Assembly (NCBI RefSeq): GCF_019823065.1
Contig: NZ_CP081966.1
Coordinates: 3,627,501-3,691,500, forward strand
Source: Pseudomonas mosselii
GTDB taxonomy: Bacteria; Pseudomonadota; Gammaproteobacteria; Pseudomonadales; Pseudomonadaceae
Length of the DNA: 64,000 nucleotides
Direction: 5' to 3'
Part shown: positions 3,521-33,814 of the stretch, piece after piece
Layout: every line of letters begins with the position of its first letter
How positions within the stretch are numbered: position 1 is the stretch's first letter
The notes under the pieces: model-generated
What the model was told of the DNA's origin: nothing
Database searches by the model: none
What the model saw: only the letters and a program-made list of their open reading frames with translations
Program-made: the position numbers and the translations under genes

Positions 3521-3943
3521 ATGCCATACATCACCCAGGTCGACAGCACCCTTTGGGCGCTGATCACTCGCCTGCAGGGTCAGGAGCTGCAAACACCCCA
3601 CACGCCAAGCAACGCCCGCTTCCAGGTCGACACGGTGGGTGCCGACAACCTGACGATCACCACCGGCGCCCAGGCCAGTAGCCTGACCATCAGCCGTGGG
3701 GCGTTCCAGCAAACACTGGACTATCTCGCAGCCAACGGGCACTTCGGCGTTTCCAACGCAGTCCCGGTCGCCTCAAACAAGGATCCGGCACTGGCCGGCC
3801 CGGTCTGCCTGGCGGCGCGTCTTCAGCCCAACGGCAACCCTGGGCGCATGGTCATCACCTACATCCTGCCTATTCTCGAGCACTGCCAGGCGGTCGGCAT
3901 ACAGCGCGCCATCACCCCGACCACGACCTGGCTTCTACCCTGA
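3521..3943 (+). CDS. Small protein of unknown family, copy 1 (paired with helicase)
   Basis: This 140-residue soluble protein follows a clear ribosome site (AAGGAG, 8 bases before ATG). It matches none of the families I know. It is clearly homologous along its whole length to the protein at 27837-28259: both begin with ITQVDxTLWALIxRLQG, both contain FQQTLDYLA, and both end with VITYILPILEHCQAV and TTWLxP or STWLxP. It has no signal peptide or membrane segment. In both places the gene directly precedes a large protein gene (here an SF1 helicase 107 bases downstream). That suggests the family supplies a shared adaptor or regulator to different effectors, which is inference. Confidence 0.75.
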   Translation: MPYITQVDSTLWALITRLQGQELQTPHTPSNARFQVDTVGADNLTITTGAQASSLTISRGAFQQTLDYLAANGHFGVSNAVPVASNKDPALAGPVCLAARLQPNGNPGRMVITYILPILEHCQAVGIQRAITPTTTWLLP

Positions 3944-19596: not shown

Positions 19597-21072
19597 ATGA
19601 AACTGAACCAGCACAACCTCGGCCAACTGCCGCCCACCGTCGCCCGCCCCTCCTACGACCGCGCCCAACTGCGCCAGGGCATCGTGCACATCGGCGTCGG
19701 CGGCTTCCACCGCGCCCACCAGGCCGCCTACACCGACGCCCTGATGAACGGCGGAGAAGGCCTCGACTGGGCCATCTGCGGCATCGGCTTGCGCGGCGAA
19801 GACCGCGCCATGCGCGACGCCCTTGCCGGCCAGGACCACCTCTACACCCTGTTCGAACTGGGCGACCAGCCCGACACCAAGGTCCGCGTGATCGCCGCCA
19901 TCAACGGCATGCTGCTGGCTGCGGACGGCGCCGAACCGCTGCTGGCCAAACTGGCCGAACCCAATATCCGCATCGTCTCGCTGACCATCACCGAAGGCGG
20001 CTACTGCATCGACGACAGCACCGGCGAGTTCCGCATCGACCTGCCACAGATCCAGCACGACCTGGCCAACCCGCAATCCCCGCAAAGCGTCTTCGGCTAC
20101 CTCTGCGAAGCCCTGCGCCGCCGCCGCGAAGCCGGCACCGGGCCGTTCACCGTGATGTCATGCGACAACCTCCCGCACAACGGCGACGTCGCCCGCAAGG
20201 CCCTGTTGGCCTTCGCCCAGCGCCTCGACCCCGACCTGGCCGACTGGGTCGCCAGCCACGTCAGCTTCCCCAACGCCATGGTCGACCGCATCACCCCGAT
20301 GACCAGCCCCGCCCACCGCCAGCAACTGCGCGAGCGCCACGGCGTCGACGATGCCTGGCCGGTGGTGTGCGAGCCGTTTTTGCAATGGGTGGTGGAAGAC
20401 ACCTTCGTCGCGGGCCGCCCGGCCTGGGAGAAAGTCGGCGTGCAGTTCACCCGCGACGTCACCCCCTATGAAGAGATGAAGATCAAGCTGCTCAACGGCA
20501 GCCACCTGGCCCTCACCTATCTGGGCTTTTTGCAAGGCTACCGCTTCGTCCACGAAACCCTCGCCGACCCGCTGCTGCGCCGCTACATGCGCACCTTCAT
20601 GGACCAGGACGTAACCCCACAACTGGCCCCGGTGCCCGGCATCGATCTTGAGCGCTACAAGCAAAGCCTCGGCGAACGCTTCGCCAACCGCGCCATCGCC
20701 GACCAGCTGGAGCGCGTGTGCTCCGACGGCTCGTCGAAGTTCCCCAAGTTCATCGTGCCCACCGCCAACCGCCTGATCGCCGACGGCAAGCCGCTGGAGC
20801 GCGTGGCCCTGGTGGTCGCCGCCTGGGCCCTGTACCTGCGCGGCGAAGACGAGCACGGCAACCGCTACAGCATCCCCGACCCCCGCGCCGCCGATTGCCA
20901 GGCCCGGGTGGTGCAACGCGACGGCCTGGCCGCCCGGGTGCTGGGCGACGAGGCGATCTTCGGCAGCGCCATCCCCGCGTCCAAGGCCTTCGTCAGCGCC
21001 TTCGAGCGCCTGTACGACAGCTTGCGCGAAGTCGGCGTGAGTGAAACCCTGCGCCAGGTCCTCGGCGACTGA
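19597..21072 (+). CDS. mtlD: Mannitol 2-dehydrogenase
   Basis: The 491-residue long-chain polyol dehydrogenase has an N-terminal nucleotide-binding motif GIVHIGVGGFHRAHQA at 28-43 and the family's lysine motif KIKLLNGSHLALTYLGFLQG near 296. It oxidises mannitol to fructose, and arabitol or sorbitol to the matching ketose, with NAD. AAGGA precedes the start; the gene lies 10 bases after mtlK. The fructose or xylulose it makes is phosphorylated by the next two genes. Confidence 0.93.
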   Translation: MKLNQHNLGQLPPTVARPSYDRAQLRQGIVHIGVGGFHRAHQAAYTDALMNGGEGLDWAICGIGLRGEDRAMRDALAGQDHLYTLFELGDQPDTKVRVIAAINGMLLAADGAEPLLAKLAEPNIRIVSLTITEGGYCIDDSTGEFRIDLPQIQHDLANPQSPQSVFGYLCEALRRRREAGTGPFTVMSCDNLPHNGDVARKALLAFAQRLDPDLADWVASHVSFPNAMVDRITPMTSPAHRQQLRERHGVDDAWPVVCEPFLQWVVEDTFVAGRPAWEKVGVQFTRDVTPYEEMKIKLLNGSHLALTYLGFLQGYRFVHETLADPLLRRYMRTFMDQDVTPQLAPVPGIDLERYKQSLGERFANRAIADQLERVCSDGSSKFPKFIVPTANRLIADGKPLERVALVVAAWALYLRGEDEHGNRYSIPDPRAADCQARVVQRDGLAARVLGDEAIFGSAIPASKAFVSAFERLYDSLREVGVSETLRQVLGD

Positions 21073-21088
21073 CACGGAGTGTTTCGAA

Positions 21089-22579
21089 ATGGACGGATTG
21101 TTCCTCGGCATCGACTGCGGCACCCAGGGCACCAAGGCCCTGGTGCTGGACGCTGGCAGCGGCCAGGTGCTCGGCCTGGGCAGCGCCGCCCACGCCCCGC
21201 CCCAGGGCCGTGACGGCCGGCGCGAGCAGGATCCCGCCGACTGGCTAGATGCCTTGCGAGCGGCGGTGGCCGCTGCCTTGCGTGAAGCCGGTGTGGATGG
21301 CCACGCGATCCACGCATTGGCAGTGTCCGGCCAGCAACACGGCCTGGTGATGCTCGACGCCCAGGGCCAGGTGCTGCGCCCGGCCAAGCTCTGGTGCGAC
21401 ACCGAGAGTGCGCCCGAGAACCAGGCACTGCTCGATGCCCTCGGCGATGCCCAAGGCTCGCTCGAACGCCTCGGGCTGGTGATCGCGCCAGGCTATACCC
21501 TGTCCAAGTTGCTATGGACCAAGCGCCATCATCCCGATCTGTTCGCCCGCCTCGCCCATATCCTGCTACCCCACGACTACCTGAATTACTGGCTGACCGG
21601 TCGCGCCTGCACCGAACCCGGCGACGCCTCCGGCACCGGCTACTACGATGTGCGCCGACGGACCTGGGCGCCCGATGTCCTTCAGCACATCGAGCCAGGC
21701 GAGCGTCTTTGGGCGGCGCTACCTGAGCTGGTCGAATCCGGCGATTGCATCGCCCCCCTGCGCGAACAGGCCGCCATTGCCCTCGGCCTGAGCCCGCAGA
21801 CCTGGGTGGCCACGGGCGGCGGCGACAACATGCTCGGCGCCATCGGCACCGGCAATATCGCCCCCGGCATGATCACCCTGAGCCTCGGCACCTCCGGCAC
21901 CCTGGCCGCCTACGCCGACCAGCCCCACGTCAGTGCCCAGGGCGAAGTGGCGACCTTCTGCGCCTCCAGCGGCGGCTGGCTGCCGTTGATCTGCACCATG
22001 AACCTCACCAGCGCCTGCGCCTTGGTGCGCGACCTGCTGGAGCTCGACCTCGACCGTTTCACCGCCCTCGCCGCCCAAGCCCCGATCGGCGCCGACGGCC
22101 TGCTGATGCTGCCCTTCTTCGACGGCGAACGCGTGCCCGCGTTGCCCGAAGCCACCGCCAGCCTGCACGGCATGACCAGCGCCAACCTGAGCCGCGCCAA
22201 CCTCTGCCGCGCCGTGCTCGAAGGCACCAGCTTCAGCCTGCGTTACGGGCTCGACCTGCTGCGTACCAGCGGCCTCCAAGGCAGCGAAATCCGCCTGGTC
22301 GGCGGCGCGGCGAAGAGCCCGCTGTGGCGCCAGACACTGGCCGACCTGCTCGGTCTGCCAGTGGTGTGCCCCCAACAGACCGAAGCCGCCGCCCTGGGCG
22401 CCGCGATCCAGGCCGCCTGGAGCCTCGGTCGCCAACTAGGCCAGGGCGACAGCCTCGAAACCCTGTGCAAACGCTGCGTCGCCCTCGACGAAAGCACCCG
22501 AACCCTGGCCCGTCCGGCACAGCAGGCCGCGTACGAGGTCGCCTATCAACGCTACCGGGAGCAACTGCCTGCACGCTGA
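21089..22579 (+). CDS. mtlY: Xylulokinase
   Basis: The 496-residue FGGY kinase begins FLGIDCGTQGTKALVLDAG (ATP-binding loop, residues 4-22), with the second signature RLVGGAAKSPLWRQTLADLL near 411. It phosphorylates D-xylulose formed from arabitol. The start at 21089 has a GGAG site; the longer frame from 21041 runs into mtlD. Its length matches xylulokinases. Confidence 0.92.
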   Translation: MDGLFLGIDCGTQGTKALVLDAGSGQVLGLGSAAHAPPQGRDGRREQDPADWLDALRAAVAAALREAGVDGHAIHALAVSGQQHGLVMLDAQGQVLRPAKLWCDTESAPENQALLDALGDAQGSLERLGLVIAPGYTLSKLLWTKRHHPDLFARLAHILLPHDYLNYWLTGRACTEPGDASGTGYYDVRRRTWAPDVLQHIEPGERLWAALPELVESGDCIAPLREQAAIALGLSPQTWVATGGGDNMLGAIGTGNIAPGMITLSLGTSGTLAAYADQPHVSAQGEVATFCASSGGWLPLICTMNLTSACALVRDLLELDLDRFTALAAQAPIGADGLLMLPFFDGERVPALPEATASLHGMTSANLSRANLCRAVLEGTSFSLRYGLDLLRTSGLQGSEIRLVGGAAKSPLWRQTLADLLGLPVVCPQQTEAAALGAAIQAAWSLGRQLGQGDSLETLCKRCVALDESTRTLARPAQQAAYEVAYQRYREQLPAR

Positions 22580-22620
22580 GTGCGGGTATCCTTCCCTTGT
22601 CTTTCGTTCTGGAGAACTGC

Positions 22621-23565
22621 ATGTACCTGGTGTGTGGCGAGGCCCTGTTCGATGTCTTCAGCCTGGAAAACAGCAGCCGCAGCAGCGAGCTGGGGTTTAC
22701 CGCGATTGCCGGCGGGTCGCCGTTCAACGTGGCCGTCGGCCTGCGCCGGCTGGGCGTGGCGTCAGCGTTGTTCGGCGGGTTGTCCAGCGACTACCTCGGT
22801 GCCCGGCTGCGCCGGGTGCTGGAAGAGGAACGGGTAGACTGCCGCTATGTGGTAACCAGTGATGCACCGACCACCTTGGCCATGGTCGGGCTGGATGCCG
22901 ATGGCTCGGCGCAGTATCAGTTTCGCGGTGAAGGCTGTGCGGATCGGCAGGTGACGCTGGCGCATCTGCCGGAGCTGGATGAGCATGTGCGGGGAATCCA
23001 TGTGGGTTCGTACACCCTGGTGGTGCAGCCCGTGGCCGATACGCTGATGGCGCTGGTGGAGCGCGAGCGGGACCGGCGGCTGATCAGCCTTGATCCGAAT
23101 GTGCGGCTTAATCCGCAGCCGGATGTGGCGCTGTGGCGGCGGCAGGTGGAAGCGTTTGCCGGGCATGCGCATGTGATCAAGGCCAGTGAGGAAGATATCG
23201 CTCTGCTCTATCCGGGCCGGGAGACTCGTGACGTGGCGCGGGGCTGGCTTAACGAACGCTGCCGGTTGGTTTTCATTACTCATGGAGCAGACGGTGCCAG
23301 TGTGCATTGCGCGCACGGCTCATGGCAGCGCCCAGCGGATACCTCGTTGCCGGTATGCGACACCGTAGGCGCCGGTGACACCTTCCAAGCTGCAGTGCTC
23401 GCCTACCTCGCACGCCTCGGAGCAGACAGCCCAGCCGGTGTGGCGAAGCTCTCCCATGAAACCATCGATGCGATCCTCGCCTACGCAATCCATGCCGCAG
23501 CGATCACCTGCTCCCGAACAGGCCCGGATCTGCCCTTCGAGCATGAACTACCACCGACATTCTGA
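22621..23565 (+). CDS. mtlZ: Fructokinase, PfkB family
   Basis: The 314-residue PfkB sugar kinase has the N-terminal AGGSPFNVAVGLRRLG signature near residue 27 and the catalytic DTVGAGDTFQAAVLAYL motif near 247, where the Asp is the catalytic base. It converts fructose from mannitol oxidation to fructose 6-phosphate. The start at 22621 has GGAG 8 bases upstream. It is the last gene of the operon. A decayed copy of its last 125 bases lies 8.6 kb downstream, at 32053-32178. Confidence 0.92.
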   Translation: MYLVCGEALFDVFSLENSSRSSELGFTAIAGGSPFNVAVGLRRLGVASALFGGLSSDYLGARLRRVLEEERVDCRYVVTSDAPTTLAMVGLDADGSAQYQFRGEGCADRQVTLAHLPELDEHVRGIHVGSYTLVVQPVADTLMALVERERDRRLISLDPNVRLNPQPDVALWRRQVEAFAGHAHVIKASEEDIALLYPGRETRDVARGWLNERCRLVFITHGADGASVHCAHGSWQRPADTSLPVCDTVGAGDTFQAAVLAYLARLGADSPAGVAKLSHETIDAILAYAIHAAAITCSRTGPDLPFEHELPPTF

Positions 23566-23581
23566 GGATCATCCATAGCCT

Positions 23582-23621
23582 GGGAAGCTTTCATACAACG
23601 CTTCCCACTCTCATCATTTTT
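23582..23621 (+). terminator. mtl operon terminator
   Basis: GGGAAGC and GCTTCCC form a stem with an 11-base loop, followed after a short gap by CATCATTTTTCC, 17 bases after mtlZ. The T-run is displaced, so it is a moderate terminator. Confidence 0.55.
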
Positions 23622-23741
23622 CCTATACCGCCCATCAAAATCCTGACTGAATGTATGCAAATGTAAAAAAATATGATGGCACTATGCCTCGTTAGCCGGC
23701 AAAATCCATAGATTCCCAATGGATTTGAAGGATCGGTTCCA
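23622..23741 (+). promoter_or_regulatory. AT-rich leader of the hxs operon
   Basis: This stretch is strikingly AT-rich for the window. It contains a good -10 match, TATGAT at 23672-23677, but no convincing -35 at the usual spacing. It is the only place for an hxs promoter, since the mtl terminator lies just upstream. Confidence 0.4.
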
Positions 23742-24041
23742 ATGACATGGCCAGTCATTCTGAAACTCGACAGCGCAGCCTATTCCCTAAGCGTGGTGCA
23801 ACGAACCGCTTATGCCTTGGCTGAAACAGTCGCGATTCAGATCGGCATTGAAGCTGACCAGATCAGCCTCACTGCCTTCCCTGCTAAAGCGAAAGCCATC
23901 CTGCCTCAGGAGCAGGCGCATTCGCTGATCCTCCAGCATTTAAATGACTTTGCCCTACGTGATCACATCAACCGTGAGACAGCTGGGTTGCGTGAGGTGC
24001 TGGCTCGAGCAGCGCTTGCTGGATGCGGAGTTTCGCGGTGA
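23742..24041 (+). CDS. hxsD: His-Xaa-Ser system protein HxsD
   Basis: The 99-residue soluble protein begins the four-gene His-Xaa-Ser operon. AAGGA precedes the ATG. Size and the N-terminal pattern (short beta strand then YALAETVAIQIG) fit HxsD, the small partner always found next to the two radical SAM proteins. Its molecular role is unknown; a leader-binding or scaffolding role resembling RiPP recognition proteins is only a guess. It overlaps hxsB by 19 bases. Confidence 0.85.
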   Translation: MTWPVILKLDSAAYSLSVVQRTAYALAETVAIQIGIEADQISLTAFPAKAKAILPQEQAHSLILQHLNDFALRDHINRETAGLREVLARAALAGCGVSR

Positions 24042-25525
24042 CACTGATTGCGAGCGACGCTAACGGCTACCGTCTGCTACCCTTTCGCTTCATGCGCCTG
24101 AACACCGCAAATGAACGTGACATTTTGCTCACCTCCGATACAGGCGAGTACATGCACGTGAACGACGCGCAGTTGCGGGCCCTCAGTTACTTCGACATAG
24201 AAACAGGCACACCTTTCTACAAGGACCTGCTAGCTCGCCATTTCATCTACGAACCGACACGTCACGACCCTTTTCCCGAAATGGCGGCGCAATATCGCAG
24301 CCGCAAAGACTTTCTTTTCCAGGGCCCAGCCCTGCACTTGTTCGTTGTAACGCTACGCTGCAACCACACCTGCCAGTACTGCCAAGTTTCGCGCGCACCG
24401 CTGGGTGGCTCAGGCCATGACTTATCGGAAGCGGATGCACTCGCTGCTGTTGATCGCTTGTTCGAGTCGAACGCTCCCGCCCTGACAGTGGAGTTCCAGG
24501 GCGGCGAGCCACTTCTGGCCTTCGAACGTGTACGCCAGATTGTCGAATGGGTAGCTGCACGAAACTTGGTCGAGCAACGAGATATTCAGTTCGTCATTAC
24601 CACAACGTTGCACCACCTGACAGACGAAGTACTCGACTTCGCAAAACAGCACCGCATCCAGTTCTCGACGTCCCTCGATGGACCGGCGCCCTTGCACAAT
24701 GCCAACCGCCCAACGCCTTCACGAGACTCTTACGAGCGCACCGTGGAAGGCATAAAACGGGTCCGTGAGCATCTTGGACACGACGCAGTCTCCGCACTGA
24801 CAACGTTGACTTCTCGAAGCCTTGAACAGCCTGAAGCTATCATCGACGAATACGTAAAGCAGGGTTTTTCCAGCATTTCACTTAGACCGCTCAGCCCTTA
24901 CGGGTTTGCTTCCAAGAGTGCACATCGCCTTGACTATCCGATTGAGCAGTACCTGACCTTCTACACGAAGGCGCTGGCCTATCTGCTGAAGATCAACCAG
25001 CAAGGAACCTACCTGTCGGAGAGCTACACCAGCTTGCTGCTGAAGAACATCCTGACGCCCTTCTCATCCGGCTATGTCGACCTGCGCTCACCCGCCGGCG
25101 CGGGTACAGCGGCGCTGGTCTACAACTATGACGGTTACGTCTACCCGTCGGACGAGGCTCGGATGCTGCTGGAGATGGGCGAAGACGGTTTAAGGTTGGG
25201 CACAGTCCAGCAACCCTTGTCAGAACTTTTGGCCTCACCCGTTATGGAGGCGCTACTTGCCAGTGGCGTCGCGGAGGCATTGCCAGGCTGTTCGGATTGC
25301 GCATTGGTTCCCTACTGCGGCGCAGACCCGGTCGAACATTATGCTCGCCAAGGTGATCCGATCGGACACCGGTTGTTCAGCAGTTTCTGCAAGAAGAACA
25401 TGGGGCTGTTAAAGCACTTGTTCGGCTTGCTACGCGACGGAGATGACAACGTCCAAAGGGTACTGCTGTCCTGGTTGAGCAGGCGCTCATACATCGATGT
25501 TCGCTTCCCAGGCTACAGGGGCTGA
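24023..25525 (+). CDS. hxsB: Radical SAM protein HxsB
   Basis: This is a 500-residue radical SAM enzyme. The [4Fe-4S] motif CNHTCQYC gives C113, C117 and C120. FQGGEP follows near 161. A C-terminal SPASM-type region, CSDCALVPYCGADPVEHYA near 420-438 plus a later Cys, would bind auxiliary clusters. That layout is typical of peptide-modifying enzymes. The likely substrate is HxsA, encoded two genes downstream, at its His-Xaa-Ser repeats. The start at 24023 overlaps hxsD; a GTG at 24038 is an alternative. GC content is lower than in the mtl genes. Confidence 0.92.
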   Translation: MRSFAVTLIASDANGYRLLPFRFMRLNTANERDILLTSDTGEYMHVNDAQLRALSYFDIETGTPFYKDLLARHFIYEPTRHDPFPEMAAQYRSRKDFLFQGPALHLFVVTLRCNHTCQYCQVSRAPLGGSGHDLSEADALAAVDRLFESNAPALTVEFQGGEPLLAFERVRQIVEWVAARNLVEQRDIQFVITTTLHHLTDEVLDFAKQHRIQFSTSLDGPAPLHNANRPTPSRDSYERTVEGIKRVREHLGHDAVSALTTLTSRSLEQPEAIIDEYVKQGFSSISLRPLSPYGFASKSAHRLDYPIEQYLTFYTKALAYLLKINQQGTYLSESYTSLLLKNILTPFSSGYVDLRSPAGAGTAALVYNYDGYVYPSDEARMLLEMGEDGLRLGTVQQPLSELLASPVMEALLASGVAEALPGCSDCALVPYCGADPVEHYARQGDPIGHRLFSSFCKKNMGLLKHLFGLLRDGDDNVQRVLLSWLSRRSYIDVRFPGYRG

Positions 25526-25530
25526 GGACG

Positions 25531-26760
25531 ATGCTGCGCAAAGATACCCACTTCGAAATTCAATACCTGAATGAACCAAAGCTGCTCAAGGTCATCACCC
25601 TGGATGAGTTCATTGAGCAAGGAGTCGCAGTTTGCGCCGGTACCGCGCAATTCAATGATTTGCTGCTCTGGTTACCCAACGAAGATCTTGAACGAAATCC
25701 ACATCTGCTTTCATTGCCAGTGGGCGGTTTCCTGACCCCAGAGGCACTCACTAGCCCGTTCGACAATGGCAGACTGCACCTGCATTCCCCCAAAGATCCG
25801 GATGTCGTTCAACCTGGCGATGTCATTGCCTTTACCCCTGGCAATGCATTGGTAAGAGTGCTCTATCGACGCGGGTCAGACAGTAACCTGCTGTTCATGA
25901 CGGATCGTTGCAACAGCCTCTGCCTGATGTGCTCGCAACCGCCTAAAGATATCGATGACCGCTGGCATATCGAGGAAAACCTTCGACTGATCGACCTTAT
26001 GGATGCAGGCGAGGAAAACCTGGGGATCAGCGGCGGAGAGCCCACACTTTATCGCGATGGCCTGCTTGAGATTCTGGCCAAGTGCAAAACCGTTTTGCCG
26101 CAGAAGTCCATACATGTGCTCAGCAATGGTCGGCTGTTCAAAGATCCGAGCTGGATCGCAGCCCTCGCGGTCCTAGGCCACCCACAGTTGAGTTGGGGCA
26201 TCCCGCTGTATGCCGACAACGCAGTCGACCATGACCATGTAGTTCAGTCCCCGGGCGCCTTCAGCGAAACCGTGCAAGGACTCTATAACCTCGCACGCGC
26301 TAACCAGATCATTGAGATACGCGTGGTACTCAGTCGCCTGACCACACCACGCTTGCCTGAATTAGCCCATTACGTGTTCAGGAACCTCCCCTTCGTACGG
26401 CACGTTGCGTTGATGGGTATCGAAAGTACTGGTCTGGCCAGAAAGCACTACGAGGAGTTGTGGATTGACCCGGTGGATTATCAAGAGGCATTGAGCCAAA
26501 CCGCCTATTTCCTCTTCAACCGTGGGATGCCGGTTTCGATCTACAACCTGCCCTTGTGTTTGACCCCACCCCACCTCTCACGATTCGCCCGCCAGAGCAT
26601 CTCCGACTGGAAAAACCTGTTCATCGATACCTGTCAGCAATGCGCTGCCGTCAAACATTGCTCAGGGTTCTTCAAATCCCACACTGACCGCTGGCAGAGC
26701 CGCGGCGTACGACAACTATCGACCGAGGCCTTTAGCGCCTATGCAAGGAGTGCACAGTGA
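25531..26760 (+). CDS. hxsC: Radical SAM protein HxsC
   Basis: The second radical SAM enzyme of the system has 409 residues. The cluster motif CNSLCLMC gives C127, C131 and C134, and ISGGEPTL near 168 is the SAM-binding GGE motif. A C-terminal cysteine group (CQQCAAVKHCSGFF) near 371-384 could hold another cluster. About 120 residues precede the radical SAM domain, an unusually long leader region. The gene starts 5 bases after hxsB, and its stop overlaps the GTG start of hxsA by 4 bases. The exact reaction is unknown to me. Confidence 0.92.
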   Translation: MLRKDTHFEIQYLNEPKLLKVITLDEFIEQGVAVCAGTAQFNDLLLWLPNEDLERNPHLLSLPVGGFLTPEALTSPFDNGRLHLHSPKDPDVVQPGDVIAFTPGNALVRVLYRRGSDSNLLFMTDRCNSLCLMCSQPPKDIDDRWHIEENLRLIDLMDAGEENLGISGGEPTLYRDGLLEILAKCKTVLPQKSIHVLSNGRLFKDPSWIAALAVLGHPQLSWGIPLYADNAVDHDHVVQSPGAFSETVQGLYNLARANQIIEIRVVLSRLTTPRLPELAHYVFRNLPFVRHVALMGIESTGLARKHYEELWIDPVDYQEALSQTAYFLFNRGMPVSIYNLPLCLTPPHLSRFARQSISDWKNLFIDTCQQCAAVKHCSGFFKSHTDRWQSRGVRQLSTEAFSAYARSAQ

Positions 26761-27365
26761 AATTGCTTGACCGCTGGAAAATCCTGATCAGTGGCATCAC
26801 CTTGTTGCCGATGGCTGGTACCACATTGGCACAGGCGGGCCATACACCGCTTGCCGATGCGAACTGGCAACCAAGCGACAAGCTGCAGCCTCCAGTCTTT
26901 GCCGATACGCTCAATGCCGCAGACGCAGTGAACATTTATGCGGCACATCGCTCGCACAGCTCACATCGGTCCCATAGCTCCCACAGTTCCCATTACAGCG
27001 GGTCCGGTGGCTATAGCGCGCCTCGTTACTACAGCCCGCCCGCAACGAGCACGCGGAGCTACAGTGCGCCGAGTACTTCGCACAGTACTTCAGGTAGCAA
27101 TAGCCTTTATCAGTCGACCGGCACTGCTCCCGGAGCGAGCCCGGGTACGTCAAAGACCCGCGCGACTAACGAACAGAAAAGCAACTTGGTCAAACGCGTA
27201 CAGACTGCACTTATGGTTCGCCAGTACTATCAAGGCACAATTGATGGGGTCTTGGGCAAGGCTACTCGTGGCGCGTTAATGGCCTTCCAAATGGATAGTG
27301 CCCTGACCGTGAATGGCAGGATGGATACACCCACTCTCAATTCACTGGGGATCAAGATTCCATAA
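26757..27365 (+). CDS. hxsA: His-Xaa-Ser repeat protein HxsA
   Basis: The 202-residue protein starts at GTG after AAGGAG. It has a signal peptide (hydrophobic residues 8-24, likely cut after TLAQA) and six tandem His-Xaa-Ser triplets at residues 64-81 (HRS, HSS, HRS, HSS, HSS, HYS). A Ser/Tyr/Pro-rich linker follows, then a peptidoglycan-binding type 1 domain at about 146-202 (VKRVQTALMVRQYYQGTIDG, ATRGALMAFQ). It is therefore an exported wall-binding protein whose repeat is the likely target of HxsB/HxsC. Export after cytoplasmic modification would be needed. No other gene lies in this operon. Confidence 0.93.
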   Translation: MKLLDRWKILISGITLLPMAGTTLAQAGHTPLADANWQPSDKLQPPVFADTLNAADAVNIYAAHRSHSSHRSHSSHSSHYSGSGGYSAPRYYSPPATSTRSYSAPSTSHSTSGSNSLYQSTGTAPGASPGTSKTRATNEQKSNLVKRVQTALMVRQYYQGTIDGVLGKATRGALMAFQMDSALTVNGRMDTPTLNSLGIKIP

Positions 27366-27836
27366 AGGCAAGGCTCACCTGACAACCCCGAGCGGGATTA
27401 CCTTTTGCCCAGCAATTCAGACGCAAAGCTGCTCGATCATCGCCGCGTTATTGTCACGCGCCGATAAAGCTTGGCCACGAGCCTTGAACGGACATGGACG
27501 TCAAGGTCATGGTCAAGCAACTCCAGACCGTGGTTCATCCAGGAGGCTTTGTGTCACCGAGGCTACAAAAATCGCTCATTTTAGTAGTCCAGGGACGACA
27601 ACATTAAAGAGGCGAAGGCACGTTCCGCGAAGGGCAATCGACACCATCGAAATCATCGTGGGAGCGGGCTTGCCCCGCGATGCGGGCGACACGCGGTAGG
27701 ACACCTGTTGCACGCCTAATTGCAGCTGCAGGACCGCCGTGGATCGTTACACGGGTAAGTCCAAAGAATGATGTCATTCGGACATCATGCCACGCTAATC
27801 TAGGAAGACGACCAGCGAACAACAAGGAAGGACGCC
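27366..27836. other. Intergenic region with REP unit and palindrome
   Basis: These 471 bases hold no supported gene. A single REP-like unit (GGGAGCGGGCTTGCCCCGCG) lies at 27656-27688 and a 21-bp palindrome at 27768-27788. The rest shows short unsupported frames only. Confidence 0.5.
27768..27788. promoter_or_regulatory. Perfect palindrome upstream of small protein copy 2
   Basis: ATGATGTC, 5 bases, then GACATCAT: an exact 8-5-8 dyad, 48 bases before the start codon at 27837. Its size and place suit a dimeric repressor site. No matching palindrome precedes copy 1 at 3521. Confidence 0.55.
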
Positions 27837-28259
27837 ATGCAGCACATTACCCAAGTCGATAACACTCTTTGGGCACTGATCAGCCGCTTGCAGGGGACGG
27901 AGCTGCGAACGCCCTCCAACGCCAGCAACACCCGTTTCAGAATCGCGGTGGTCAACAACGACCACGTAAGGGTGGTAACCGGCACGAACAACAGCTCAAT
28001 CACCCTGACCCGTGCGGCCTTCCAGCAAACGCTAGATTACCTGGCCAGCAACCGACACTTCGGGGAAGCACACGCAGTGGAGATTCGCTCCAATCTAGCG
28101 CCAGAAAACGCCGGCCCGCTTTGCCACGCCGCTCGTCGCCAACCAGACGGCCGTCCAGGCACCGTCGTCATCACCTACATCCTGCCGATACTGGAACACT
28201 GCCAGGCTGTCGCCATTCAGCGCGACGCCAGGCCGACCAGCACCTGGCTGGTGCCTTGA
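27837..28259 (+). CDS. Small protein of unknown family, copy 2 (paired with YaaW-like protein)
   Basis: This 140-residue protein is homologous to the one at 3521-3943 end to end, with conserved ITQVDNTLWALI, FQQTLDYLA, ITYILPILEHCQAV and a TSTWLVP end. AAGGA precedes the ATG. There is no signal peptide or membrane helix. The middle section (residues 30-60) is the most divergent and might carry specificity. It lies 71 bases before the YaaW-like gene, the same arrangement as copy 1 with its helicase. No known domain was recognised. Confidence 0.75.
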   Translation: MQHITQVDNTLWALISRLQGTELRTPSNASNTRFRIAVVNNDHVRVVTGTNNSSITLTRAAFQQTLDYLASNRHFGEAHAVEIRSNLAPENAGPLCHAARRQPDGRPGTVVITYILPILEHCQAVAIQRDARPTSTWLVP

Positions 28260-28330
28260 GCCCACCCCACCTTGTACGGGGGCACCAGCTCCCTTTACCC
28301 GATACACCGTTAAAAAGGTAAGGACACACG

Positions 28331-30154
28331 ATGGCAACCTCAGGAATCGATTGCGACGACGACTTGTTCACCAGCCTCATCAGCGCCACGCCCGAGGAAG
28401 TGGACATTCTGGTGGACATCATCACCGACTTCTCCCGGGGCCGCGCCGGCCTGGATGCGGACATCAAGAAGCAGCTGGTACAGGCCAAGTACAGTTCGCG
28501 AGCGGCGGGCTACACCGAGCAGCAGCTCGACCTGCTGGGCCATGAGCTGCAGCAGTTCGGCGGGCATTCGGCAATGAACCTGGCTCGTCGCCTGTTGAAG
28601 AAATCGGCGGTGCCCTACGCCGAGATCGTCAACGACGTGTACCAAAAGCTCAACGGCAGCGGCGCAACCAGCGTGGCGGACAAGGAACGCCAGATCGCCC
28701 TGGCGCTGTTCGGTGCCGGCTGGCGGGAGCTACCGGCCAGCGAGCGTTTCGAGCGGGCCACCAGCACCAAGGTGCTGACCGGGCTATTCAAACTCGACGA
28801 GGCGCTGCCCAAAGGGGCCGCCAGCATGATCGGCCTCTCCGCATCGCGCAGCGCGGCACTGTTCACCATGGCCGCGACCACCGGATTGCGCCTGAACCCC
28901 TTCGGCGCTGCCTTCACGGCCGGCGTGGGCCTGCATAGCAGCGTGGCTGAAGCCTACCGCGTGACCGTGCCCTTCGTTGCCCAGATGGGCTGGATCCGCC
29001 TGCGCCGGGAAGCCCCCGCCACGCCCCCGGCCACACGCCCCGACACCCAGCCAGTGGCCACCGCTTCCCAGACCACGGCCGACCTGGTGATCCAGGATGG
29101 CCAGGGCGGCACATTGCTCAAGCTCAACGTCGTGCAACGCCCGCCCGCAGGTACCCATCGCTCACTGCCAACCGACCAGATCAGTGCGCTCAACCCGCTG
29201 CTGGCCAATGTGCCCGGCCTGGCCGCCATGGGCGAGCTGGCCAGCGGCAACTACGTGGTGTGCAGCCTGCCGTTCGAGACACTGACCAAGAACGCCAACG
29301 GCGACGGCAGCGTCCGGGCCTTCGTGCGTACCGGCGGCAAGATCAGTGAACAGGCCAGCCTGTCACTGCCTGAAGACCTGCAGAACGTGCTGCTCAGTGG
29401 CGTGGTGTGGAACGCGGTGTCCTCGGCGGTGGGCCAGAAGCACTTGCACGACATCAACGAGAAGCTGGACGCCATCAAGCGTCAACTGGATGCCATGCAG
29501 CACGATCTGGACGAAAAACAGTGGGAAGAGCTGACCGGGATGTTCGAGTACACCCAAGGCGTGCTCGATCACTATCCGCAAGAAGGCATCGACAGCATTG
29601 CCCGCCAGACACTTGAGAATCAACATAGCCAGATCACCTCCCTGGCCAAATACTTCGATCGCAAGATGAACGAAGAACTGAAGCACGCCCAAGATGTGCA
29701 GGCTGACAAATTGTTCGGTGTGGACAGCACCCGCCAGGCATTGCAGGGCAGCCTGACGAAGATGGAGGGTTGGGTCAGCGGTTACCTGCAAACCGCACAG
29801 CTGCAGGTGGTCAGTTGTGCCTTGCGCTACCTGGCCGAGCCACTGCAACGCTATCGCGCCCAGGCGGCCAAGGCTCTCGAAAGTCTCGGCCAACTGGAGG
29901 AAATCGGTAACCAGAGCCGCAGCATCTACAACTCGCAGATGGAACTGACCAGCTCACGCATGTTCAGCCTCGACGCCTCGCTGAAACAAAGCTTCACGGC
30001 GCAACTGGACGGCCTGAGCAGCGTCTTGGCCCAAGGCCCGCAGGACACCCAGCAACTGCAGCAGTCGCTGTTCGATCAAGGGGAGCGTCAGGTACTGCTG
30101 CGTTATGAGAACGGACAGATCGCCGAAGCCCAACTGCTGGAGCGGGCAATCTGA
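28331..30154 (+). CDS. YaaW/UPF0174-like protein with coiled-coil C-terminus
   Basis: The 607-residue protein has a recognisable N-terminal third. LLGHELQQFGGHSAMNLARR near 70-89, AGWRELPASERFE near 128, and AEAYRVTVPFVAQM near 208-221 follow the same order as in E. coli YaaW (DUF3944 plus the UPF0174 core). The hydrophobic, glycine-rich stretch at about 160-210 may insert in a membrane. After a proline-rich linker (about 225-245), residues 380-607 are long helices with heptads (MDAIKRQLDAMQHDLDEKQW type), absent from E. coli YaaW. YaaW has no established function. The AAGG site precedes the start. The preceding small gene probably forms an operon with it. Confidence 0.75.
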   Translation: MATSGIDCDDDLFTSLISATPEEVDILVDIITDFSRGRAGLDADIKKQLVQAKYSSRAAGYTEQQLDLLGHELQQFGGHSAMNLARRLLKKSAVPYAEIVNDVYQKLNGSGATSVADKERQIALALFGAGWRELPASERFERATSTKVLTGLFKLDEALPKGAASMIGLSASRSAALFTMAATTGLRLNPFGAAFTAGVGLHSSVAEAYRVTVPFVAQMGWIRLRREAPATPPATRPDTQPVATASQTTADLVIQDGQGGTLLKLNVVQRPPAGTHRSLPTDQISALNPLLANVPGLAAMGELASGNYVVCSLPFETLTKNANGDGSVRAFVRTGGKISEQASLSLPEDLQNVLLSGVVWNAVSSAVGQKHLHDINEKLDAIKRQLDAMQHDLDEKQWEELTGMFEYTQGVLDHYPQEGIDSIARQTLENQHSQITSLAKYFDRKMNEELKHAQDVQADKLFGVDSTRQALQGSLTKMEGWVSGYLQTAQLQVVSCALRYLAEPLQRYRAQAAKALESLGQLEEIGNQSRSIYNSQMELTSSRMFSLDASLKQSFTAQLDGLSSVLAQGPQDTQQLQQSLFDQGERQVLLRYENGQIAEAQLLERAI

Positions 30155-30253
30155 GGGCGGCCAACGTAGCCTTTGGTATAAGCGGAACGGGGGATGGCAC
30201 AATCAGGGCCGGGGGCGTGAGTGTGCAGAAGTTGTCTGCTGACGATCACGCTC

Positions 30254-30463
30254 TCAACCTTCGAAAAGCACGGTGCACTTGCGATTCGCTTGTGCCCGTG
30301 CCCGAAGATCAGCCATGCGACTCAGCAACGATGCAGGGATGGGCTGGAGACGTTCCGGGTTCTCGGTAATGTCCGTGTGCACAAGCTCAAGAATGGCTTT
30401 TTCGGCCTCCTGCGCTTCGCATTCGATGGCCAGAAGTTCCACGTTCACCCTTGATTTGGACAT
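30254..30463 (-). CDS. Small conserved cytoplasmic protein
   Basis: The 69-residue protein starts at 30463, where AAGGAG lies 6 bases upstream; the longer frame has no such site. It is acidic and helical (MSKSRVNVELLAIECEAQEA). I do not know a family name. It is convergent with the YaaW-like gene and flanked by regions without genes. Confidence 0.55.
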   Translation of the reverse strand: MSKSRVNVELLAIECEAQEAEKAILELVHTDITENPERLQPIPASLLSRMADLRARAQANRKCTVLFEG

Positions 30464-30744
30464 GTTTTGCTCCTTCATCCGAACTATGCGACAACTGCCG
30501 CATGTGCGGTCTGACCAAGGGAATGTACAGCAGAATGACTTGAGGGAAATGAGGCACAAGCCCACCGTTACATGTTTCAGAACGGGACTACATGCCCATT
30601 GCCGATCGATCGGCACAGGCGCTCGCTCTAAACCGCACCTGAACGCCGCAGGCCTTTAGCCATTAGCACAACCGCCCTAATCGACCCTACTCACCCAGCA
30701 CTCGTATAGTCCCCTCTGGATTACAAAAACCAGGAAAGGACTCC

Positions 30745-31308
30745 ATGGGTCACAAACTTCCACCCCTCTGCCAATGGCTGGCCATCCTGGCCCTCACCTG
30801 CAGCACCCCAGCCCTGGCCGCCCCTGCCTCAGGCGACTACTGGATCATCTACGGCAAAGGCGAACGCCTGCACAACGAGGTCTACGTCGCCGATGCCGCC
30901 GGCATCCTGCAAAAGCCCGGCGGCGTGCAATCGGCCCAGGTCATGCAGCTGTTCGAAGACCCGGCCTTCCCGACCCTCGCCGCCTACGAGGTGCAGGTCA
31001 AATGCAAACAGCGCCAGATCCGCCTGGACAGCGCCCGGGCGATACGTCGCTTCGACGGCGCCGTGCGCGATGTGAAAACCAACGCCAAAGACTGGGCCGC
31101 ACCAAAGGACTACTGGCTGCAGCGCACCTTCGCCTTCGTCTGCGCCCCCGACAACCGCGCGCGCAACCAGATGCTGTCGATCGGCAAGATGCCGGCGGCG
31201 AAGATGGTCGCCACCATCCAGGCCATGTTCATCCAGTTGATTGGCGTGCAGGCCAACAGCCAGGCAGTGCAGGAGCTGGACGACATGCTGGCGAACACCC
31301 CACGATGA
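30745..31308 (+). CDS. Exported protein of unknown function
   Basis: The 187-residue protein has a signal peptide (hydrophobic residues 8-25, cut near PALAAPA). The mature part has paired cysteines in VQVKCKQRQ and FAFVCAPDN, perhaps a disulfide. Its stop overlaps the start of the lipoprotein gene (ATGA), so the two probably act together at the envelope. A good site (AGGAAAGGA) precedes the ATG. No known domain. Confidence 0.65.
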
Positions 31309-32178: not shown

Positions 32179-32206
32179 TGTAATACGCTGAATCGCCCCT
32201 GGTTTC

Positions 32207-33088
32207 CTAGACACTCTCCAAGCTCAGAAAATAGCGTTTCTCATACTCTACTGGAGACAGCTGCATAGCACTGCTGTGTCGACGCTTGGGGTTATAGAAC
32301 ATCTCGATGTAATCGAAAATATCACTTCGGGCTTCGTCACGCGTTGCGTAGATCTTTCGTCGGATTCGCTCCCGCTTCAAAAGCTGGAAAAAGCTCTCGG
32401 CTACGGCATTGTCGTGGCAGTTTCCCCGTCGGCTCATGCTGCTGATCACATTGTTGGCCTTCAGGAAGCTTTGCCAATCTGAGCTACTGAACTGACTGCC
32501 TTGGTCTGAGTGAATCATCACTTGCTGCTGTGGCTTGCGTCGCCACACGGCCATCAGCATGGCGTCGATGGCCAGGTCGCTGCTCATCCTGGACTTCATT
32601 GACCAACCAATGACTTGGCGAGAGAACAGATCCAACACTACCGCCAGGTACAGCCACCCTTCATAGGTGCGGATGTAGGTGATATCGGTCACCCAGACCT
32701 TATTCGGCTCACTGACCTTGAACTGCCGGGCCAGATGGTTGGGCGATGCCACTGTTGGTTTTCCGCCATAAAACCCAGGACGACGGCGATAGCCCGTTTG
32801 CGAACGCAGCCCCTCTGCCTGCATCAAGCGACCGACTCGATTTCGCCCACAGATCTCTCCCAGCTCTCGAAGGTCATCGTGAATCTTGCGATAGCCATAC
32901 ACGCCTCCGCTTTCTAACCAGGCATGCTTGATCAAGCCAAGCAGGCGTTGATCTTCTTTGGCTCGGGCAGATTGAGGCTCGGCCAGCCAAGCGTAGTAGC
33001 CGCTGGGATGCACCTTGAGGGTTTGACAAAGACGCCGCACCGGGTAATCGATCGAGTGCTTCTTGATGAAGGCGTACTTCAGCCGCAC
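32207..33088 (-). CDS. IS3-family transposase OrfB
   Basis: The 293-residue integrase-core transposase has an N-terminal HTH_21-type part (GVYGYRKIHDDL) and the DDE catalytic residues in VTDITY, HSDQGSQF and NAVAESFFQLLK. The start ATG at 33088 overlaps orfA by 10 bases. In IS3 elements OrfA and OrfB are normally joined by programmed -1 frameshifting, so OrfB alone may be minor. No internal stop; it looks intact. Confidence 0.9.
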   Translation of the reverse strand: MRLKYAFIKKHSIDYPVRRLCQTLKVHPSGYYAWLAEPQSARAKEDQRLLGLIKHAWLESGGVYGYRKIHDDLRELGEICGRNRVGRLMQAEGLRSQTGYRRRPGFYGGKPTVASPNHLARQFKVSEPNKVWVTDITYIRTYEGWLYLAVVLDLFSRQVIGWSMKSRMSSDLAIDAMLMAVWRRKPQQQVMIHSDQGSQFSSSDWQSFLKANNVISSMSRRGNCHDNAVAESFFQLLKRERIRRKIYATRDEARSDIFDYIEMFYNPKRRHSSAMQLSPVEYEKRYFLSLESV

Positions 33089-33357
33089 TCCTTGGCAAAG
33101 TACGCGGCGGCCTTCTTTAAGATGTCTCGCTCTTCCGTCACCCGCTTGAGTTCAGCGCGCAGCTTGCGCAGTTCAGCCTGCTGATCATTGTCTTGCTGAC
33201 GCTGCTCTTGGGGCTTGCTGTAGACCTTGATCCAAGCGTAAAGGCTGTGCACGGACAAGCCCAGGCGCTGGGCGACCTCGGCGACAGGTTTGCCTTTTTC
33301 GGTCACTTGCTTGACCGCTTCGATCTTGAATTCTTCGGGGTAACGCTGACGACTCAT
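33079..33357 (-). CDS. IS3-family transposase OrfA
   Basis: The 92-residue protein has a helix-turn-helix (RYPEEFKIEAVKQVTEKGK, VAEVAQRLGLSVHSLYAWIK) followed by a leucine-zipper-like helix (LRKLRAELKRVTEERDILKK). It binds the IS ends and supplies the N-terminus of the OrfAB transposase. AGGAGG lies just before the ATG. Confidence 0.9.
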   Translation of the reverse strand: MSRQRYPEEFKIEAVKQVTEKGKPVAEVAQRLGLSVHSLYAWIKVYSKPQEQRQQDNDQQAELRKLRAELKRVTEERDILKKAAAYFAKECG

Positions 33358-33420
33358 GGCACCTCCTATTTGGGCCTCATTATGAGGCTTGGAGGTGTCT
33401 ACGAAACCAGGGGCGATTCA

Positions 33421-33814
33421 TTTCTACGAATAGCTTGTCCCCATGATATAGCGCGCCGAAAAACGCCCCCATTTCCGTGGGTATAAACTGTTTACCATCT
33501 TCCGTTGAGAACAGGACTTTTTTTACCGTCCCATCGCCAAACCTAACTTCAAGCTCACAAGTAGTTTCACCCCGCTCTGGACATCCTTCGACCCGAGCCC
33601 TGGAGAGGTCAAGCATTGCAGATGGAGCGCCATCCCCCTTATCAAAAACTCGAACCGTCAGCTTCGGTCCAGAACCATTTATAGGGCTGGCCTCTTGTGT
33701 GTACATTTGGGTGCTAGACGAGCGCATCTCATCTTTAATTTCACTGCTTACCCATCCTGCTTGGCAAATAGTTGGCAGTATCGACAATACCAAAATCGAA
33801 GCACGCACCAGCAT
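33421..33814 (-). pseudogene. Exported protein gene truncated by IS3
   Basis: The frame starts at 33814 with a signal peptide (MLVRASILVLSILPTICQAG). About 131 host residues remain before the reading frame runs into the IS end and stops at 33380. Mature motifs include CPERGETTCELEVRFGDG, with a likely disulfide. The missing C-terminus is not found on the other side of the IS, where the mtlZ fragment lies. Function unknown. Confidence 0.7.

Follow-up and report, generated by a model that had tools for sequence, protein, structure and literature searches.

The Hxs gene set has been attributed to Haft and Basu, and its His-Xaa-Ser motif is putatively matured by HxsB and HxsC (PMC9062424); hxs genes have also been listed in a genome (PMC8446631). 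The passages of these two papers that deal with the system, the literature that we found to name it, give no chemistry, and a preliminary description of the DNA studied here had likewise called the system known by name but chemically poorly understood. A section of PMC11002830 reports that the radical S-adenosylmethionine (SAM) enzymes HaaB, ScaB and YhhB join C2 of His to Cβ of the residue two places on, and that MscB links C4 of Phe to Cβ of Ser. We analysed a 64,000-nucleotide stretch of Pseudomonas mosselii (contig NZ_CP081966.1, positions 3,627,501 to 3,691,500; hereafter the window) and found, with near certainty, a complete Hxs system. The copy is whole but unremarkable; the gene set already has a name in bacteria, and the system is of a kind already known. 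New in this analysis are a predicted RRE-like domain and a SPASM domain with only auxiliary cluster II (AuxII) in HxsB, cysteines for one auxiliary cluster in HxsC, the predicted fold of HxsD, and the exchangeable C-terminus of HxsA. The sequence evidence narrows Hxs to a few testable reactions and shows the target core to be a module swapped among envelope anchors.

The hxs cassette and its target protein

The genes hxsD, hxsB, hxsC and hxsA form four open reading frames (ORFs) on a single strand (+) at 23742-27365. hxsD (23742-24041) encodes a 99-residue accessory protein (TIGR03976, 67.8 bits; cut-off 50), hxsB (24023-25525) a 500-residue radical SAM/SPASM maturase (TIGR03978, 571.5 bits; cut-off 370), hxsC (25531-26760) a 409-residue second radical SAM enzyme (TIGR03977, 376.1 bits; cut-off 267.9) and hxsA (26757-27365, GTG start) a 202-residue target protein, predicted to be exported (TIGR03979, 240.4 bits; cut-off 121.65). 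hxsD and hxsB overlap by 19 bases, 5 bases separate hxsB from hxsC, and hxsC and hxsA overlap by 4 bases. The preliminary description had proposed a complete system of overlapping or nearly overlapping genes, lower in G+C than the flanking operon. The ORF positions agreed with this, all four curated NCBIfam models were exceeded, and tandem His-x-Ser (HxS) triplets were encoded in the target beside the enzymes, its export being read from the sequence. The G+C content was 0.55 at 23650-27365; it reached 0.676 in the upstream flank with the xylulokinase (19597-23565) and 0.616 in the whole window; the contrast was smaller downstream (0.63 at 28331-30154). HxsB above the cut-off occurred once in the 6.35-Mb host genome.

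HxsA begins with what, judged by eye, reads as a classical signal peptide. A leader, the six HxS triplets at residues 64-81 (26946-26999, +), a Ser-rich linker and a peptidoglycan-binding domain (PF01471, 1.1e-11; residues 142-197; 27180-27347, +) follow. The signal peptide, the six triplets and the peptidoglycan-binding domain agree with the preliminary description. The triplets, read from the sequence as HRSHSSHRSHSSHSSHYS, run HRS-HSS-HRS-HSS-HSS-HYS. Comparison with 35 homologues (38 loci, L037-L074) gave identities of 99% for the core, 77% for the leader, 68% for the linker and 85% for the wall domain. An unbroken run of triplets, with varying codons, was present in all 45 window-type loci (the window and L034-L077): six triplets in 42, seven in 2 and eight in 1. 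The triplet-codon pattern itself demands His and Ser codons, so the evidence is the unbroken run and not the codon match. The longest run was 3 to 8 triplets in 80 of 80 named loci (six in 52), and each of the best 120 of 532 HxsA homologues had a contiguous run of 3-8, most commonly six (59) and then five (41). On these counts, the HxS run is not a product of chance. The middle residue was chiefly Ser or Arg, the last triplet often carried Tyr, and N-[LIM]-[YF]-A-[AG] was common directly before the core among 183 distinct sequences.

The sequence after the core varied. PG_binding_1 occurred once in the window, L080 and L083 and twice in L081, L097, L099 and the first HxsA of L111, and TonB_C occurred in the second HxsA of L111; the two hxsA genes of that locus stand in tandem (L111:8121-9694). 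The Pfam scan found no domain after the core in L078, L079 and L102, which included the myxobacterial proteins (L078, L079) for which a PEGA domain had been suggested by eye. HxsA stopped two residues past the core in all ten of L005-L014 and was likewise short in L085 and L101. The C-terminal domain is thus exchangeable, so that the core, and not wall binding, is the constant feature. The location at the cell wall given in the preliminary description holds for the window copy, through PF01471, but not as a general trait, since other HxsA proteins lack PG_binding_1.

The HxS repeat might be left unmodified, as a metal-binding or structural spacer, with the enzymes acting elsewhere. His-rich repeats are generally known to bind metals. 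The passages on Hxs in PMC8446631 and PMC9062424 report no modification. We consider this highly improbable: each of the 80 named loci, in two gene orders, paired two radical SAM ORFs with an HxsA that has at least three triplets in a run, and the core persisted through the exchange of its C-terminal domain.

The maturation proteins and candidate reactions

The N-terminal part of HxsB (residues about 16-100; 24068-24322, +) was modelled as three strands followed by three helices (mean pLDDT of the HxsB model, 86.9) and is predicted to be an RRE-like domain. Structural alignment started at residue 20 for CteB (5wgg), whose aligned N-terminal part we take to be an RRE, and at residue 12 for TigE (8vpo). 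The radical SAM motif CxxxCxxC (C113, C117, C120; 24359-24382, +) and four AuxII-type cysteines (C423, C426, C432, C456; 25289-25390, +), aligned to the anaerobic sulfatase maturase (anSME) 4k36, were invariant in 46 of 46 rows. No Cys was found at 361-363, 376 or 436 in any of these 46 rows; we take anSME positions 255, 261, 276 and 330 to be the ligands of auxiliary cluster I (AuxI). By alignment, the SPASM domain of HxsB retains AuxII and lacks the AuxI cysteines. This alignment (A2) omits L093 and L095 from 47 representative loci, chosen by us from 113, and the structure alignment (A5) comprises 38 rows without the G-handle genomes. Outside Hxs, the closest profiles were PapB (the best, 97.8 bits; cut-off 340), nif11, QhpD and SCIFF, then CcpM, TIGR04083, YhhB, CbpB and anSME; within a diverse HxsB set, PapB matched at 1e-10 in 38 of 38 and YhhB in 30 of 38.

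Three side observations concern hxsB. The gene was split or shortened at L058:2998-4632 and L070:9941-11386, where a sequencing error is possible; this hints that the system may be dispensable. The host genome has another peptide-maturase-like radical SAM/SPASM gene (L002; G000:C1:2840962-2841543), whose 484-residue frame scored 116 bits against the HxsB model and, by pattern, has cysteines of both the AuxI and the AuxII type. Genome G059 has two above-cut-off HxsB genes on opposite strands (C1:788207-789601 and 840874-842265), which differ in score class and are separated by about 51 kb.

HxsC has a CxxxCxxC motif (C127, C131, C134; 25909-25932, +) and four further cysteines (C343, C368, C371, C377; 26557-26661, +), all invariant in 44 of 44 rows of an alignment (A3) that omits L093, L095, L103 (cut by a contig end) and L113. 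The earlier report of two radical SAM enzymes with cluster motifs was borne out by this conservation in HxsB and HxsC. The four further cysteines would suffice for one auxiliary cluster, which HxsC presumably binds. Its profile matched SkfB (6efn, E 4.1e-9) and the epimerase YydG/EpeE (8ai1, E 2.1e-4). HxsD was predicted by AlphaFold2 (mean pLDDT 90.2) to form a β-α-β-β arrangement with a long C-terminal helix, which we assign to the ferredoxin-like fold; its structure alignment (A4) has 41 rows, without the G-handle genomes. The Hxs proteins were rejected as listed defence components: among the PADLOC defence models, HxsB and HxsC gave only weak viperin-type matches, and HxsA and HxsD gave none.

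The reaction that we favour, at about an even chance, is one His-Ser (i,i+2) cross-link per triplet, formed as C2(His)-Cβ(Ser) by analogy with triceptides, with a loss of 2 Da each. By the same analogy, HxS is the His counterpart of the Phe-Ser motif of MscB. HxsB would bind pre-HxsA in the cytoplasm through its RRE-like domain, read the leader ending N-[LIM]-[YF]-A-[AG] and proceed along the HRS-HSS-HRS-HSS-HSS-HYS run. A radical at Ser Cβ would bond to the His imidazole two positions earlier and so close a three-residue His-x-Ser ring, one per triplet and up to six. HxsC, with its one auxiliary cluster, would perform a second step or modify a second set of sites, and HxsD would be a non-catalytic adaptor. 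Modified HxsA would be exported via its signal peptide; in the window lineage, PG_binding_1 would tether it to the wall, where it would display a rigid His-rich rod. Recognition, bond type, division of labour, location and role are all features that we infer for the Hxs proteins. The model makes two predictions: HxsB functions without AuxI, and the mass falls by 2 Da per triplet. Were every triplet cross-linked, a cell-wall protein would contain a long, repetitive polymer of rings.

Several findings weigh against this cross-link. HxsB scored far below every cyclophane-maturase cut-off seen (YhhB 69.1 of 445, GrrM 55.7 of 310, FxsB 47.1 of 370, AmcB 49.3 of 425), and its best outside profile, PapB, is that of a thioether maturase. 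A maturase tree, which had long branches, few rows and no FxsB or true YhhB rows, set HxsB (100/99) with rows labelled 'other', apart from the GrrM, XyeB-like and anSME-like rows (99/98). Because HxsB falls outside the GrrM/XyeB-like side, the loss of AuxI in HxsB and in GrrM is probably convergent, which supports working alike and not family membership. The anSME-like row L194 also lacked AuxI, so this loss is not specific to cyclophane enzymes. The cross-link model leaves two radical SAM enzymes for one motif unaccounted for. Finally, the invariant D377 of HxsB aligned with D277 of anSME, which would fit oxidation of Ser too. The Ser of each HxS would then become formylglycine, as with an anaerobic sulfatase maturase, and the aldehydes would react with wall or protein groups. 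We regard this as very unlikely, as HxsB has no Cys at the AuxI positions of anSME and scored 63.5 against an anSME cut-off of 349.45, and as this reading does not explain why the His is conserved or why the spacing is three residues.

The position of HxsB outside the known cyclophane families also bears on the type of bond. A link from His N to a Ser carbon (C-N) or to Ser O, or a His-His link across triplets, could replace C2(His)-Cβ(Ser). Several maturases of the PapB, nif11, QhpD and SCIFF types, the closest to HxsB by profile, attach a heteroatom nucleophile, and several make thioethers. Such a bond is nevertheless unlikely, in that the radical SAM His cross-links reported in the section of PMC11002830 are C2-Cβ; a His-O-His ether made by a P450 is likewise reported there.

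The HxsC profile raises the question of epimerisation, since it matched YydG/EpeE as well as SkfB, and the cysteines for one auxiliary cluster recall the twitch enzymes described in part of PMC9012708. One enzyme, more likely HxsC, might epimerise repeat residues, alone or after cross-linking by HxsB, with no change in mass. This seems quite unlikely: the YydG match was limited to the radical SAM core (profile 49-151), viperins, BlsE and MoaA matched HxsC equally well or better, and the invariant HxsC residues beyond the seven cluster cysteines included no candidate Cys as hydrogen-atom donor. A comparison of masses alone is blind to epimerisation, and it is unable to split a cross-link from a Ser-to-formylglycine change because both amount to -2 Da.

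Mobility and genomic surroundings

An alignment of 38 upstream regions indicated a conserved segment before hxsD (23650-23741, +). It holds an extended -10-like element (conserved as TGGCATAAT; TGGCACTAT in the window), an AAATCC...GGATTT inverted repeat and an AAGGA Shine-Dalgarno-like site; the most distant of the 38 rows did not retain it. A sigma-70 consensus scan of the upstream region gave 0 sites, and a sigma-54 promoter (TGGCA...GCC upstream) was rejected by eye for its wrong spacing.

When named loci of the window type were aligned to the window (matches of at least 200 bases), 28 of 44 aligned from 23643-23662 to 27361-27366 and no further upstream; the unit therefore travels with its upstream region. 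Downstream of these 28 loci, a 140-residue ORF also matched in 13, and L053 alone matched near 32189-33438. Two near relatives, both without an above-cut-off HxsB, lacked the cassette at the site of the window: position 23555 was joined to 30649 with 1,360 bases of other DNA between in G110 (L134), and 23540 to 30252 with 935 bases between in G102 (L135). L034 and L035 carry the cassette without the window DNA that follows it, from 27366 to about 30813 in L034 and to about 30649 in L035. The Hxs unit is thus a low-GC mobile cassette, probably acquired horizontally. Above-cut-off HxsB was found in 32 of 249 genomes of the genus, with at least two gene orders, A-D-B-C in 10 of 10 (L005-L014) and D-B-C-A in 20 of 20 (L001, L015-L033). 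HxsB of the A-D-B-C order grouped with Acidobacteria, Myxococcota and one Bradyrhizobium row, and HxsB of a third Pseudomonas type (L087) fell beside that of Acinetobacter and betaproteobacteria.

The 140-residue orphan ORF (27837-28259, +) often directly follows hxsA in Pseudomonas. By score class, 21 genomes had window-type HxsB, and 10 of these carried the ORF, compared with 9 of the 228 others; in several loci it was only partial or fragmented by tblastn. Profile scans gave no family match, and 2 of 48 homologues carry precomputed PF25943. We rejected it as a fifth hxs component, given its presence in eight genomes without above-cut-off HxsB and in G051, which has another Hxs type, and a second copy elsewhere in the window (3521-3940, +; G000:C1:3631021-3631440; 62% identical). 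The segment between hxsA and this ORF (27366-27836) is missing from those relatives that have about 50 bases between hxsA and the ORF; it contains what reads by eye as a REP-like Pseudomonas element. A 607-residue ORF adjoins the cassette (28331-30154, +), and its N-terminal part matched PADLOC JukA models (1.8e-22). It was discarded as an Hxs partner, being shared by L036 alone among the loci compared.

Flanks of up to 10 kb were surveyed at 80 named loci, with genes taken as greedy ORFs, relatives found by phmmer and Pfam labels drawn from single members. Bacteroidota hxs genes had an Ion_trans channel nearby at nine loci (two of one genome), eight times downstream and always on the hxs strand, and a DNA/RNA non-specific endonuclease at nine loci. 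A kinase-VWA-PP2C set stood beside hxs at five Bacteroidales-type loci (L100, L106, L108, L109, L111), four of which (not L109) also had the channel and Endonuclease_NS; L096 gave weak kinase and VWA matches only. The surroundings of these five loci are possibly a larger envelope signalling or defence island. PADLOC on the neighbour sets matched the kinase of L100 alone, weakly. Part of PMC11090510 presents TerY-P triads of this make-up as a hypothetical switch that senses metals, and describes TerY-P-like modules as anti-phage systems; in a section of PMC7159879, vWA conflict systems are described that include a radical SAM enzyme, its likely substrate being a peptide effector. An SGNH-hydrolase and MBOAT acyltransferase pair lay downstream of hxs in three Bacteroidota loci (L081:13299-16591, L102:9197-12555 and L109). 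Loci of the P. mandelii type had hxsA followed by a 131-residue ORF and a di-haem MauG-like peroxidase in 4 of 4 (L087:13212-14970, L090, L091, L095); the peroxidase is a possible periplasmic second modifier.

None of these neighbour families was seen beside the window cassette among the ORFs scanned within 21041-31305, and the role of HxsA was therefore deduced from its own domains: it would form a rod of His-Ser rings in the envelope, held there by peptidoglycan. A wider proposal, which we put forward as doubtful, treats HxsA as a structural protein of the poly-cyclophane kind. Its envelope rod would consist of consecutive His-x-Ser rings, six at most in the window copy and up to eight elsewhere, made by a SPASM enzyme that lacks AuxI and stands apart from the known triceptide families; the rod would be set on exchangeable anchors (PG_binding_1, TonB_C, others or none). 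The Bacteroidota rod would lie in a larger envelope-guarding island (ion channel, secreted nuclease, kinase/VWA/PP2C TerY-P-like triad), and hence Hxs would be a stress or anti-phage system and not a natural product.

Comparison with described systems

Triceptide systems (MscB, Grr/OscB, XncB, YhhB, HaaB) share with Hxs the SPASM fold and an aromatic-x-x motif. HxS has its direct analogue in the Phe-Ser link of MscB, whose family we read as FxsB. The precursor motif, an aromatic residue i with its partner at i+2, was present as His-x-Ser in 45 of 45 window-type loci. HxsB did not score above the cut-off for GrrM, FxsB, YhhB or AmcB, and the tree did not bear out its orthology with triceptide maturases, which the AuxI comparison had led us to expect. 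Hxs differs from triceptide systems in its two radical SAM enzymes, HxsD and a large exported envelope target.

GrrM/OscB exceeded the cut-off in one and two of 150 genomes in two draws that share one genome (L169, L189), and these two GrrM proteins have AuxII without the AuxI set, as in HxsB; in L189 a single Cys remains close to the third position. Above-cut-off YhhB was found in 0 of 150 genomes and XyeB in 0 of 274. All group names other than GrrM are our labels for matches below the cut-off. Two XyeB-like rows (L181, L182) lacked AuxI and three (L184-L186) kept it, as did 8 of 8 'other' rows and five of six anSME-like rows, the sixth being L194.

The enzyme anSMEcpe (4k36-4k39) resembles HxsB in its fold and in the Asp after the lost Cys, and differs in its AuxI cysteines, absent from HxsB in 46 of 46 rows; with its score below the anSME cut-off, HxsB falls outside that family. 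CteB, of the SCIFF type, was the best structural match to HxsB, N-terminal domain included. For ChlB, a literature search gave no paper on the enzyme of 9gm3 among the matches listed. PapB is the best outside profile, but HxsB stays below its cut-off and the window HxsA contains no Cys, so it cannot form thioethers. The closest likeness is to Hxs itself (TIGR03976-TIGR03979), with four contiguous genes on one strand whose products all exceed the cut-offs. Nothing categorical sets the window copy apart; its gene order is D-B-C-A, the N-terminus of its HxsC is long, and the tail of its HxsA is PG_binding_1.

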